Assembly: GCA_031280635.1 (NCBI GenBank)
Contig: JAITGK010000127.1
Coordinates: 1-33,162, forward strand
Direction: 5' to 3'
Origin: Synergistaceae bacterium
Lineage (GTDB): Bacteria > Synergistota > Synergistia > Synergistales > Aminobacteriaceae
Length of the DNA: 33,162 bases
The translations under genes were made by a program, and so were the position numbers. Below, piece by piece: positions 25,580-30,256 of the stretch. The notes beneath the pieces were generated by a model. That model saw only the letters and a program-made list of their open reading frames with translations. It was not told the DNA's origin and ran no database searches. How positions within the stretch are numbered: position 1 is the first letter of the stretch; every line of letters starts with the position of its first letter.

Positions 25580-26578
25580 ATGACAATGACCCACAGACAG
25601 AGGATAGAAAACGCCTTGGCCTTCAAGCCGACCGACAGAGTACCCTACAGCTTGTGGCGGCACTTTCCCAACTTGGATCGTCACCCTCGCAGAATGGCCG
25701 AGCTTTGCCTGGCCGCCCAGAAACGCTACGACCTGGACTTCGTCAAGCTCATGCCCTATGGCCTATATAGCGCCGTCGATTATGGGCTGGATTTGACGGT
25801 CGACGTCACCCAGCCGCCTGTCGCGCGCGAGCCCCTCATAAAGCGCGTGGAAGATTGGGACAAGCTGCGCCCGGTTCCTGGGACGCGCGGTGAATACGCC
25901 ATACTTCTGGAATCGCAGCGCCTGCTGATCGAGATGATGACGGAGCCAGTTCCGTTTGTTCAGACGATTTTCAGTCCGCTGACGACCGCGGCTAAACTTA
26001 GCTCCCCGGAGATAGTGAAGCGGCATATCGCCCAAGACCCGCGTCGGGTGCGCCGGGCCCTGGAGATCATCACGGCGACGACAAAGCGGTTTCTCAAGGC
26101 GTCGCTGGAGGTCGGTCTCGACGGCGTGTTCTTCGCCACGCAGATGTCCACAGAGGGCCTGCTCCCCGTCGCCGTTCACGAGGAGTACGTCAAGAAGTTC
26201 GACTTGGAAGCGCTTGAACCCGTCAAAGGGGCGACCTGGTTTAATATTTTGCACGTTCACGGAGCGAAACCACTCTTGAAGGAGACGCGGGACTACCCCG
26301 TCCAAGCGCTGAACTGGCACGACAAGGATGAGGGTCCGAGCATGAAAGAAGTCAGGGAATTCAGCTCTCTGGCGTTCATGGGAGGCTTGAGTCATGGGGA
26401 GTATTTTGACAGAAAAGACAACCCACTGATCGTTAAAGACGTGCTTGACGCCGAACGGGAGGGACGCGGCGTCATTCTCGCGCCGGGCTGTGTGCTTTCA
26501 CCAGCGGTTTCGGAGGAAATGTGCGGACTCGTCCACGAGAGCGTTTTAAAAACGAGGGGCGATCGCCCCAACGCCTAG
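25580..26578 (+). CDS. Uroporphyrinogen decarboxylase (URO-D) superfamily protein
   Basis: A 332-residue TIM-barrel protein of the URO-D/MtaA superfamily. It starts TMTHRQRIENALAFKPTDRV, the usual opening, and has GLDGVFFATQMSTEGLL (about 179-195), NILHVHGAKPLL (about 222-233) and GVILAPGCVLSP (about 297-308). In zinc methyltransferases such as MtaA the metal ligands are H-x-C and a later Cys; here the first pair is His225-x-His227 and Cys304 is kept. It is therefore not a classical heme enzyme on sequence grounds, and may be a corrinoid or other methyltransferase, or a decarboxylase of an unknown substrate. ATG 25580 follows GAGAGG by 8 nt and comes 13 nt after the binding-protein gene, so they form one operon. 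Its stop lies in the end of repeat copy F. Confidence 0.8.
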   Translation: MTMTHRQRIENALAFKPTDRVPYSLWRHFPNLDRHPRRMAELCLAAQKRYDLDFVKLMPYGLYSAVDYGLDLTVDVTQPPVAREPLIKRVEDWDKLRPVPGTRGEYAILLESQRLLIEMMTEPVPFVQTIFSPLTTAAKLSSPEIVKRHIAQDPRRVRRALEIITATTKRFLKASLEVGLDGVFFATQMSTEGLLPVAVHEEYVKKFDLEALEPVKGATWFNILHVHGAKPLLKETRDYPVQALNWHDKDEGPSMKEVREFSSLAFMGGLSHGEYFDRKDNPLIVKDVLDAEREGRGVILAPGCVLSPAVSEEMCGLVHESVLKTRGDRPNA

Positions 26579-26714: not shown

Positions 26715-27488
26715 TTAGATGGGGCGCTTGTACCCACGCTGGATTTTGCCGCCCAGCCACAGGGCGGCCTCGAACAGCAGGTAAAGTGGGACGCCCAGCG
26801 TGACCTGAGAGACCACATCAGGTGGGGTGAGTACTCCCGCCAGGAAGAAGATCAGAAGGACGGCGTGGGGCCTGTAACGCGCCGCGACTTGGCGCCGTAT
26901 TACGCCCGCCGCCATGAGTACTAGGAGGGCCAGGGGCATTTGGAGCAGAAGTCCTGTCGCCATCATCAGGTTGAACAGGAGCGCCAAGTACTCTTTCAGG
27001 CCCCAAAGCGCCTCTACCCCGTCTCCAGCTCCAAAGGACAGGAAAAAACCGAACACGACGGGCGCTAGGAACCGGTAACACACTGCCGCTCCAGCAAAAA
27101 ACAAAACGGGCGCGGCAAACAGCACCGCGCTCACGTAACGAAACTCCTTGCCGCGCAATCCCGGCCACAAAAAAAGCGCCGTCTGCGCGCAAAAAAACGG
27201 CGCGGTGAGGACAATCCCCGTCCACGCCGCCAAGCGCAGGTGAGCCATGAACTTCTCGGCGGGGGCGAAAGTATGGAGCGTCACATGAAACCCCGCCAGC
27301 GGCTCAGTCAGAAAAGAGGCAATGTGAGAAGAGAACGCGAACGCGATCAGGGTCGCGGTGAAAAAAATGGCCAACGCGGCGATGACGCGCCTGCGCAACT
27401 CCTCCAGGTGCGGCTCCCACTCCTCCCAGGCCCCGGGGAAAAGTTCCGATTCCGCGTGAGCGCCAGTCCTGTCAGTCTTTTGACTCAC
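26715..27488 (-). CDS. tatC: Sec-independent protein translocase TatC
   Basis: A 257-residue membrane protein, the signal-recognition subunit of the twin-arginine translocase that moves folded proteins out of the cytoplasm. The cytoplasmic N-terminus carries HLEELRRRVIAALAIFF, the conserved substrate-recognition part, and six hydrophobic helices follow. LTPPDVVSQVTLGVPLYLLFE at about 220-240 is the usual TatC ending. ATPase genes are not needed for this system. The GTG at 27488 has GAGG 6 nt upstream and lies inside the end of tatA (17-bp overlap), which shows tight coupling. No tatB is seen; TatA may serve both roles. The operon also encodes two proteins with twin-arginine motifs. Confidence 0.93.
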   Translation of the reverse strand: MSQKTDRTGAHAESELFPGAWEEWEPHLEELRRRVIAALAIFFTATLIAFAFSSHIASFLTEPLAGFHVTLHTFAPAEKFMAHLRLAAWTGIVLTAPFFCAQTALFLWPGLRGKEFRYVSAVLFAAPVLFFAGAAVCYRFLAPVVFGFFLSFGAGDGVEALWGLKEYLALLFNLMMATGLLLQMPLALLVLMAAGVIRRQVAARYRPHAVLLIFFLAGVLTPPDVVSQVTLGVPLYLLFEAALWLGGKIQRGYKRPI

Positions 27489-27645
27489 CTTTATCCTCAG
27501 ATTTCGCGCTCTCGCTGTTCAGCGCTGACTTGAACTCGCGGATGGCCGACCCCGCCGCGCGTCCCACCTCCGGCAAGCGCTTTGCCCCGAAAAGCAACAG
27601 CGCCAAAACTATCAAAAGGGCGATCTCTCCCATTCCCAGATTCAT
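27472..27645 (-). CDS. tatA: Twin-arginine translocase subunit TatA
   Basis: A short 57-residue protein. It starts MNLGMGEIALLIVLALLLFG, a single membrane helix, then AKRLPEVGRAAGSAIREFKS, the amphipathic helix with the conserved FG-x-x-x-LPE pattern, and a short charged tail SEDKGESKD. This is the exact plan of TatA/TatE. The ATG at 27645 has GGAGG 5 nt upstream. Its last 17 bases overlap tatC. TatA forms the pore or weakens the membrane during export. Shorter than many TatA proteins (about 60-90) but complete. Confidence 0.93.
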   Translation of the reverse strand: MNLGMGEIALLIVLALLLFGAKRLPEVGRAAGSAIREFKSALNSESAKSEDKGESKD

Positions 27646-27688: not shown

Positions 27689-29176
27689 TCAAAAAGGAAA
27701 ATCGCCGTTTGTGGAGGGAAGAAAAAGGGTCTCGGCGGATTCCTCCGGCAAGGTTGGCCTCATCCCTGGCGTGGACGTCTGGGACGAGACGCCTCGCGCG
27801 ACAAACGCCTTGGGCTCCGCGGGGCAGACGTTCAGGCAGCCCCCGCACCCGATACAGTACTTGACGTCAAACTCCGGCACGGTCAACGAACCGTTGGGTA
27901 CCATCCGCAGAGCGCGCGTTGGGCAGACCTCAGCGCAGGCTCCACAGGACTCGCCCCTGGTGATAACCACGCAGTTCGAGCGCGTGAAAGTCGAAAGCGC
28001 AATCCGCGTTCTCCGCTTCTCCTCGCGCGGTAAAGAATGTATCGCTCCGGCCGGGCAGACGTTTCCGCACTCCACGCAGTTGTACTGGCAGTATCCATAG
28101 GTGTAGTCCAAGTAGGGGAGGTAGCGCTCGCTGGCCTGAATGATCCCCACAGGACAGGCGGCGGCGCAGGCGAGGCAGCTGATACAGTGACCGGCGAAGT
28201 GGCCAACGTTCCGCGCCCCAGGCGGAAGAACCCTGTCGATGAAAGCCGCCGCGCTTAGGCGGTCGGCCAAAAAACTCCGTCCTAGGCGGCGCAAGGGACG
28301 CCCGGACAAATACGCTAACCCTGCCGCGTAGGTCGCCAGATTTGCCAGATTTCCGGTTTTACGGAGAAATGTCCTGCGCCTCACATCCACGGCGGAAACC
28401 AGTCCGTAGTCCAGCGCCCCCACCACGCAGGTTTTCGCACAGTTTAAACACATCACACAGCGGTCTCGATCCAACCTTCCGCGCTTGGCGTCAACGCAGT
28501 TCATGGGACAGGCCCTCTCGCAATTGCCGCAGGCGACGCAGGCGTCCCGGTTGAGCCTTATGCCGAAGGGCGCGACGCGAGAGCACAAGCCGAACACGAT
28601 GCCCACAGGACACCAGTCGCAGAAGCGGCGACCTCGCGCGGCGGCAAACAGCGAAACCGCGGTGAAGACCGCTACTCCCCTTAAGACCAGAGGCGCCGCG
28701 GCGGCAAGTCCCTCGGCGGCGAGAGCGGAGAAGCCACGCACTCCGTGCCCGAAGATCGCCATAGGCTCGAAGGCTTTGAGTCCCAGCGCGGCCAAAATGG
28801 GAATGATGTAACGCTGCCGCCAGGGGGAGATAAATTTCGGCGTCAAAAACTTTTTCAGTTTTCCCCGCGCCGCCAGGGCAGACACCTTTCTCACCGCTTC
28901 CTGAGCCGTCCCCAAAGGACAGACAAAACCGCAATACCAGCGCCCAAAGATCACAGCGATCGCAAGCCACCCCAACACCGCGGCGGCCAGTGGTCCACCC
29001 CGCGCCAGAGCTCCGGAAAATTGCGCTCTCATATAATCCGCTCGGAGTCCCTGCCATTGCAGCAATGAGGAGGTAAAAAACCGAATGAAAAGAAACAGCG
29101 CCGACAAAGCGATAACCCAACGCAGCCAGGCTAAAACCCTGTAACGCCGGCGCTTTGCTTTCGCGGTGACGAGCAT
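27689..29176 (-). CDS. NapH-NapG-like fused polyferredoxin membrane protein with internal twin-arginine motif
   Basis: A 495-residue electron-transfer protein that looks like two proteins joined. Residues 1-255 resemble NapH/MauN: four or five hydrophobic segments, the motifs YCGFVCP (81-87) and CDWCP (186-190), then two 4Fe-4S sites (Cys 213/216/219/223 and 240/243/246/250). At 266-273 the sequence RRRTFLRK is followed by a hydrophobic stretch (about 276-292), as in a Tat signal. Residues 320-460 resemble NapG/MauM with four more Cys clusters (331-341; 363-374; 402/411-418; 441-451). It probably moves electrons from a quinol or low-potential donor across the membrane. The ATG at 29176 comes 1 nt after the DUF362 gene stop; tatA and tatC follow. 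The electron acceptor is unknown. Confidence 0.8.
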   Translation of the reverse strand: MLVTAKAKRRRYRVLAWLRWVIALSALFLFIRFFTSSLLQWQGLRADYMRAQFSGALARGGPLAAAVLGWLAIAVIFGRWYCGFVCPLGTAQEAVRKVSALAARGKLKKFLTPKFISPWRQRYIIPILAALGLKAFEPMAIFGHGVRGFSALAAEGLAAAAPLVLRGVAVFTAVSLFAAARGRRFCDWCPVGIVFGLCSRVAPFGIRLNRDACVACGNCERACPMNCVDAKRGRLDRDRCVMCLNCAKTCVVGALDYGLVSAVDVRRRTFLRKTGNLANLATYAAGLAYLSGRPLRRLGRSFLADRLSAAAFIDRVLPPGARNVGHFAGHCISCLACAAACPVGIIQASERYLPYLDYTYGYCQYNCVECGNVCPAGAIHSLPREEKRRTRIALSTFTRSNCVVITRGESCGACAEVCPTRALRMVPNGSLTVPEFDVKYCIGCGGCLNVCPAEPKAFVARGVSSQTSTPGMRPTLPEESAETLFLPSTNGDFPF

Positions 29177-29177
29177 G

Positions 29178-30089
29178 TTACACGGCCAGTCGCTCTATTT
29201 TCAGCTTCGTGAGGTCGATCTGCCCGAACCCGGCCTCGGCGGCGAGGCGGATGTGCCCGATGTCTGAGGGCTCTCGGCCCAGCATCCTCGCGGACGCGGC
29301 GTCCGCCGCCACTACGTCGGGGGAGAGAATCTGCGCGTTCATCGTGACGATATCCTCCCGCGAGCCGCCCCTGGGCCCGTACCGCGTGATGACACGGTAG
29401 GCGTCCACTACGTTTAAGTCGGGCTTACGAGCGTTCAGAAAGTCCGCGATACAGGCTTGAAGGCCCTTGGAGTGGTATTCGTTCCGGTTCCAGACGCAAC
29501 CCATCAGGTTCTTTATGGAGATGCTGACGCCCGCGCCGCCATGGTGCTTCAGCACGGGGACGCTGACCAAAACGTCGCACTCCAGAAGGGACTCGTGAAT
29601 TTGCGTGGATTTCAGCGCCGAGCCGGCCACGTCAATCTTCTGGTAGTACCCCTGACTTTCCGCTGGGGCGTGTACCCCGCCCACGGCCTTCACCGCCGCG
29701 GCGATTCCGCTGCCGTTCCAGGAATTCTCCCAATATTCTATCGAGTGATCCAGCACCAGGACGCGCCTAGCTCCCGCGTCGAGGCAGTGTTTGATGACGC
29801 GCGCCACCAACTCCGGGGAGGTGTTGGCCGCCGCGCTTTCGGCCACGTCCCAAGACATGTTGGGCTTGACGACGACGGTCTGTCCGGATTTGACGAATCG
29901 ACCTATACCTCCCAGCGCGGCGATGCCCCGGTCGAACATCGCGGCGGGTGAGCCGCCCCTCAGCGCCACCAGGTCGGGAGGGGAGTCCTCCGCCCTCGCC
30001 TTCCCAGTCCGAAGTCCCTTGGGAAGCAGAAGCGCCCCGGCCCCTAGGCCAACGGAAAGGGTTTTCTTCAAAAATTCACGCCGTTCCAT
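29178..30089 (-). CDS. DUF362 domain protein with a Tat signal peptide
   Basis: A 303-residue exported protein. It begins MERREFLKKTLSVGLGAGAL, a classical twin-arginine signal (RREFLK), with cleavage near KARA at about 33. The body is the DUF362 domain: VVVKPNMSWDV (about 76), VLVLDHSIEYW, the conserved VPVLKHHGGAGVSISIKNLM (about 178-197), and NVVDAYRVITRYGPRGG. DUF362 proteins often occur with 4Fe-4S proteins; some carry the cluster themselves, this one does not. The ATG at 30089 has AAGGAGG 8 nt upstream. First gene of the operon with the polyferredoxin, tatA and tatC, so the translocase and its cargo are made together. Function not established. Confidence 0.85.
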   Translation of the reverse strand: MERREFLKKTLSVGLGAGALLLPKGLRTGKARAEDSPPDLVALRGGSPAAMFDRGIAALGGIGRFVKSGQTVVVKPNMSWDVAESAAANTSPELVARVIKHCLDAGARRVLVLDHSIEYWENSWNGSGIAAAVKAVGGVHAPAESQGYYQKIDVAGSALKSTQIHESLLECDVLVSVPVLKHHGGAGVSISIKNLMGCVWNRNEYHSKGLQACIADFLNARKPDLNVVDAYRVITRYGPRGGSREDIVTMNAQILSPDVVAADAASARMLGREPSDIGHIRLAAEAGFGQIDLTKLKIERLAV

Positions 30090-30157: not shown

Positions 30158-30256
30158 GCTCTGAAGCCGTTGGTTCTTTTTCGCGCAAAGTTTTTGCCGT
30201 TTATAGCCAGGCTTTTGGCTTGTATTTCCACGCGCGATTATACAAACCGCTCTAAG
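30158..30256 (+). repeat. Interspersed repeat element, copy G
   Basis: Runs from AAGCCGTTGGTTCTTTTTCGC to GCGCGATTATACAAACCGCTC. ACCGCTCT occurs on both outer sides (about 30155 and 30245), like the flanking repeat of copy A. It separates the DivIC-like gene from the DUF362 operon. Confidence 0.75.

Follow-up and report, generated by a model that had tools for sequence, protein, structure and literature searches.

A polyferredoxin with an internal twin-arginine motif encoded alongside DUF362, tatA and tatC genes in a Synergistaceae bacterium

In the window, by which we mean the whole 33,162-nucleotide stretch of Synergistaceae DNA that was analysed, four genes on the minus strand follow one another in the order DUF362, polyferredoxin (PFD), tatA and tatC (Table 1). 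The PFD gene is a single open reading frame encoding 495 amino acids that fills positions 29176 to 27689. The DUF362 gene most likely starts at the ATG at 30089, which is preceded by AAGGAGG, giving a Tat signal that reads MERREFLKK; the TTG start listed at 30188 is unsupported by homologues. TatC scores over its family cut-off at 180 bits, carries a glutamate at the position that presumably corresponds to Glu103 of the Escherichia coli protein, and is the only TatC match in the whole genome. This gene order is kept across most of the loci compared, and in two genomes where tatAC lies elsewhere (G030 and G005), the DUF362 and PFD genes nevertheless remain adjacent. A gene for a URO-D/MtaA-like methyltransferase lies just past tatC on the opposite strand (25580–26578).

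Table 1. Features of the operon and of the polyferredoxin gene, with the support for each
Feature	Position	Strand	Support
DUF362 protein, 303 aa, N-terminal Tat signal MERREFLKKTLSVGLGAGALLLP	29178..30089	(-)	PF04015 E=2e-45; TIGR01409 over cut-off
Polyferredoxin (PFD), NapH-NapG-type fusion, 495 aa	27689..29176	(-)	Pfam, NCBIfam, homologue alignment
NapH-like membrane half, residues 1-203	28568..29176	(-)	Fer4_5, TIGR02163 partial, AlphaFold model
Predicted third cluster site on the cytoplasmic side (CX3CP and CX2CP motifs)	within 28568..29176	(-)	
Two cytoplasmic 4Fe-4S motifs (predicted), residues 213-250	28427..28540	(-)	Pfam Fer4; cysteines invariant, 32 homologues
Twin-arginine codons R267-R268 (CGC AGG)	28373..28378	(-)	sole 100% conserved linker residues, 56 homologues
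Weakly hydrophobic Tat-dependent segment (predicted), about residues 274-293	28298..28357	(-)	low hydrophobicity
NapG-like domain (residues 331-451) with four 4Fe-4S motifs, predicted to lie outside the cytoplasm	27824..28186	(-)	Pfam Fer4_7 and others; invariant cysteines
C-terminal tail F-P-F, residues 493-495	27692..27700	(-)	F-[PA]-F in 82/85 complete C-termini
tatA, 57 aa, MNLGMGEIALLIVLALLLFGAKRLPEVGR...	27472..27645	(-)	read from sequence; family aligned across loci
tatC, 257 aa, GTG start overlapping tatA end	26715..27488	(-)	PF00902 E=5e-53

The first-pass annotation had described the PFD as a NapH–NapG-type fusion in one chain, and the open reading frame does join a NapH-like half to a NapG-like cluster half. 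Pfam places Fer4_5 at residues 65–98 and Fer4 modules on both sides of the twin-arginine motif, and the NCBIfam matches are partial, with 62.8 bits against a cut-off of 213 for NapH (TIGR02163) and 31.9 bits against a cut-off of 269 for NapG. The AlphaFold model (pLDDT 79.7) contains four long helices ahead of the motif, spanning residues 2–35, 61–77, 138–159 and 162–181, and a weak helix after it at 277–290; a fold search of the PDB with this model returned weak ferredoxin-type matches and nothing better. The several membrane helices earlier placed before the motif are thus borne out, but the two cytoplasmic 4Fe-4S sites counted with them become three in our prediction (C82/C86/C186/C189, C213–C223 and C240–C250). 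Four further sites follow the motif (C331–C341, C363–C374, C402/C411–C418 and C441–C451), and the cluster cysteines of all seven sites are invariant among the 32 homologues aligned.

Residues 266–273 read RRRTFLRK, and this Tat-like motif lies where it had been reported, in mid-protein and before a hydrophobic segment. The arginine pair that can be aligned across the family is R267–R268, and in 56 near-full-length homologues these are the only positions of the 58-residue linker that are conserved in every sequence, the next best being F270 (82%), G286 (82%) and L271 (77%). Because R267–R268 is invariant and F270 and L271 come next, the conserved RRxFL corresponds to the Tat consensus. The pair is kept in all 32 aligned full-length PFD homologues and in 61 of 63 distinct PFD sequences of the Synergistota and Treponemataceae. 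The two that lack it are L058, a contig-end fragment with an apparent RD whose tail reads on in no frame, and the remote homologue L189. The segment after the motif is far less hydrophobic than TM1–TM4 (median 7.4 versus −0.04 to 2.4, on an approximate, position-independent scale whose values are not comparable with published apparent free energies), which makes it the least Sec-like of the membrane segments. It is followed by the basic stretch RPLRRLGR.

When the genome was scanned with a Tat-signal profile, the DUF362 protein ranked first and was the sole credible N-terminal Tat cargo, although the profile is insensitive enough that further cargoes may exist; the other three matches are weak and either lie in an antisense frame or lack RR. 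Its arginine pair is invariant in 33 of 33 homologues, as are H183 and K193 in the homologue alignment. A sequence search of the PDB gave no credible relative, and the structural model (pLDDT 87) matches LarA structures with E-values down to 9e-8 and TM scores of about 0.4–0.5. The 10-residue spacing between H183 and K193, candidate residues for a nickel-pincer cofactor, is that between His174 and Lys184 of LarA1, and DUF362 shares Pfam clan CL0471 with the LarA superfamily (DUF2088; PMC11770544). In contrast to LarA, the DUF362 protein is predicted to be Tat-exported, is shorter, and is only about 14% identical. The genome also holds a LarC-type Ni_insertion gene, which we rejected as a marker of operon carriers, since 90 of the 101 genomes searched have it whether or not they carry the operon. 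Among the open-access papers searched, we found none that joins DUF362 with twin-arginine or Tat export, and the link to the PFD is a first starting point for working out what this uncharacterised exported family does.

The C terminus of the PFD may provide the physical connection between the two proteins. Almost every chain finishes with F-[P/A]-F (82 of the 85 C-termini that are complete), and two of the three exceptions (L139 and L222) have no DUF362 neighbour; the simplest guess is that the tail docks to DUF362. One of these, L139:6002-7342 in genome G005, is a second, shorter PFD paralogue with the motif SRRAFLIK, which sits beside a flavodoxin-like gene in surroundings that contain neither DUF362 nor tatA nor tatC. 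Among Synergistota loci without a PFD (L134, L135, L137, L138, L141 and L142), tatAC stands beside other Tat-signal proteins, including molybdenum oxidoreductases, flavodoxin-like and other proteins, and tat genes in this phylum therefore tend to sit with a cargo. The strongest alternative to our reading draws on these loci: the PFD could be Tat-targeted and yet function without DUF362, the operon reflecting only a common need for Tat export. The L139 paralogue and the G679 homologue L222, which have the motif and no DUF362 found nearby, favour this idea, as does the placement of tatAC next to other cargo in PFD-less Synergistota. We consider it unlikely, though a serious contender, since DUF362 and PFD stay together even where tatAC has moved away, and since F-[PA]-F is present in nearly all PFDs beside DUF362 and missing in the two that stand without it.

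Across genomes, the PFD and TatC occur together. Of 188 Synergistota genomes, 44 encode the PFD, 71 encode TatC and 42 encode both, so that TatC is found in 42 of 44 PFD genomes versus 29 of 144 others (Fisher p 3e-20, with shared ancestry ignored); the two PFD genomes that lack TatC are 77% and 55% complete. Among 200 Treponemataceae genomes, TatC is present in all 22 that encode the PFD versus 18 of the 178 others (Fisher p 1e-18, again ignoring shared ancestry). In the PFD tree, a 19-member Treponemataceae clade with full support (100/100) and internal depth of its own nests inside Synergistota. The operonic TatC proteins are placed likewise in the TatC tree, largely apart from the TatC of operons without a PFD. 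As the Treponema copies branch from within Synergistaceae in the gene trees, the cassette probably crossed a phylum boundary, and the simplest direction is from Synergistota into Treponema. A termite-gut origin of the Treponema carriers is suggested by the naming of the isolates rather than by any statement in the records.

The named Treponema carriers are metagenome-assembled genomes, and mis-binning of single cases is therefore possible. That all Treponema copies are mis-binned Synergistaceae contigs, with no true transfer, strikes us as improbable. The GC content of the operon is somewhat above that of its flanks in L050, L054 and L055, as it also is in Synergistaceae loci, and the TatC rows L158 and L160 fall deep within the subclade of the window, both of which would suit mis-binning. 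Against it stand the depth and support of the 19-member clade in the PFD tree and its matching placement in the TatC tree.

The arginine pair is less strictly kept among more distant relatives. The first-pass annotation had proposed that homologues should show conservation of RR, which holds for 56 of 56 near-full-length sequences and fails in 11 of the 23 remote Spirochaetota homologues that are readable, the other 12 having kept the pair. The variants in these 11 are RA (two), RK (three), RL (two), RF, RS, RE and KR, such that the first arginine is retained in 10. Some of these operons encode a DUF362 with an intact RR beside a PFD that has lost the full pair, and strict dependence on RR is therefore not universal. 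In G209 (L189/L241) both cargoes are without the pair, with RA in the PFD and RK in DUF362. At the TatC position compared across loci, which we take to be Glu103 of the E. coli protein, this genome has a threonine, whereas the remaining TatC sequences of the alignment, as far as they span it, have glutamate. This is a single case, and G491, whose PFD has KR, retains the glutamate. A looser requirement for the pair in tethered signals fits the finding that a Rieske protein with a twin-lysine change keeps some Tat interaction (Tooke et al., PMC5449189). Whether the internal signal of a tethered protein needs the full pair becomes a testable question with these one-arginine homologues.

An experimentally studied putative homologue bears directly on the role of the motif. 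Q1NSB0 from the delta proteobacterium MLMS-1, a "polyferredoxin" formed by a NapH–NapG fusion, has five segments, seven predicted clusters and an RR before segment five, and reporter fusions with RR-to-KK controls showed that it requires both Sec and Tat (Tooke et al. 2017, eLife, PMC5449189). It is very improbable that Sec instead inserts segment five by itself, or that the segment is not inserted, the RR being an ordinary positive-inside cluster and the four C-terminal clusters either cytoplasmic or unfolded during export: the PFD is arginine-rich, basic residues before helices are common and the pair is absent in 11 of the 23 remote homologues, but within the linker only R267–R268 are fully conserved and F270 and L271 extend them to RRxFL, the segment is weakly hydrophobic, tatAC shares the operon and co-occurs with the PFD, and the homologue needs Tat (PMC5449189).

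We therefore hold with high confidence that the PFD belongs to the dual Sec–Tat-targeted polyferredoxin family of Tooke et al., that the TatAC encoded downstream exports its cluster domain, and that DUF362 is a second cargo. Gene order, motif conservation, co-occurrence and the hydrophobicity pattern support this reading, and dual targeting, demonstrated for the homologue, would extend to the window protein by analogy. Assembly by Sec and then Tat had already been predicted for this chain, and the prediction is strengthened by an RR conserved within a variable linker, a last segment that is the least Sec-like, tatA and tatC as the next genes, a single-copy tatC, and the dual targeting of a homologue of the same architecture (PMC5449189). 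In the mechanism that we propose, Sec/YidC would insert the four NapH-like helices co-translationally, leaving the two 4Fe-4S motifs and the CX3CP/CX2CP site on the cytoplasmic face. Weak hydrophobicity of the fifth segment and the basic residues behind it would keep Sec from finishing the insertion, and this segment, with its RRxFL, would wait in the cytoplasm as the last four clusters are put in place. TatAC would then move the folded cluster domain outward, with the neighbouring DUF362 protein as the other likely substrate. We infer a partnership in which the PFD and DUF362 probably form a transmembrane electron path, leading from the cytoplasm or the quinone pool to an exported partner of LarA fold.

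A more far-reaching version of this model is tentative, and we would sooner expect it to fail in some part than to hold throughout. Here the operon would be a self-contained, transferable cassette in which TatAC serves mainly the two cargoes and DUF362 docks on the F-[P/A]-F tail; it would have moved from Synergistota to termite-gut Treponema, and the second arginine could be dropped from its membrane-tethered internal signals. In the G209 lineage, the TatC glutamate that would read this arginine would have gone too.

Several known systems resemble the PFD. Like the actinobacterial Rieske proteins (Sco2149, QcrA), it is predicted to have Sec-inserted helices followed by a Tat-dependent last helix that carries a cofactor domain outward; it differs in having five segments rather than three and a polyferredoxin as cargo, and a Rieske-type protein is ruled out because Pfam finds only 4Fe-4S families and no Rieske 2Fe-2S domain. 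The NapGH quinol dehydrogenase likewise pairs a NapH-type membrane ferredoxin with a Tat-exported, four-cluster ferredoxin of the NapG type. Whereas NapGH accompanies nitrate reductase, the PFD is a single chain with DUF362 and tat genes alongside, and a NapGH complex proper is excluded because neither the NapH nor the NapG score comes near its cut-off and because the two halves are fused in one reading frame.

The closest counterpart is Q1NSB0, for which homologues have been listed in several phyla (Tooke et al. 2017, PMC5449189). Compared by its published description, the PFD shares with it the NapH–NapG fusion, the five membrane segments, the seven predicted 4Fe-4S sites (three inside and four outside) and an RR directly before a weakly hydrophobic fifth segment with basic residues after it. 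The architecture is thus not new to science (PMC5449189), and because the PFD agrees with every testable feature of the family, the first-pass annotation was right about a protein whose kind was already known. Unlike Q1NSB0 as reported, the PFD shares its operon with genes for DUF362, TatA and TatC (PMC5449189 mentions neither "DUF362" nor "operon"), and the arginine pair is degraded in some of the remote homologues described here. The additions to the family are this translocase and DUF362 operon, a history that probably crosses phyla, the tail at the C terminus and the remote homologues that have lost part of the arginine pair. With the window protein and its relatives, the experimentally described class of dual Sec–Tat proteins reaches Synergistota and Treponema, the latter probably of termite guts. 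A dual-targeted protein that seems to travel with its own translocase provides a compact natural setting for the possible co-evolution of cargo and machine.
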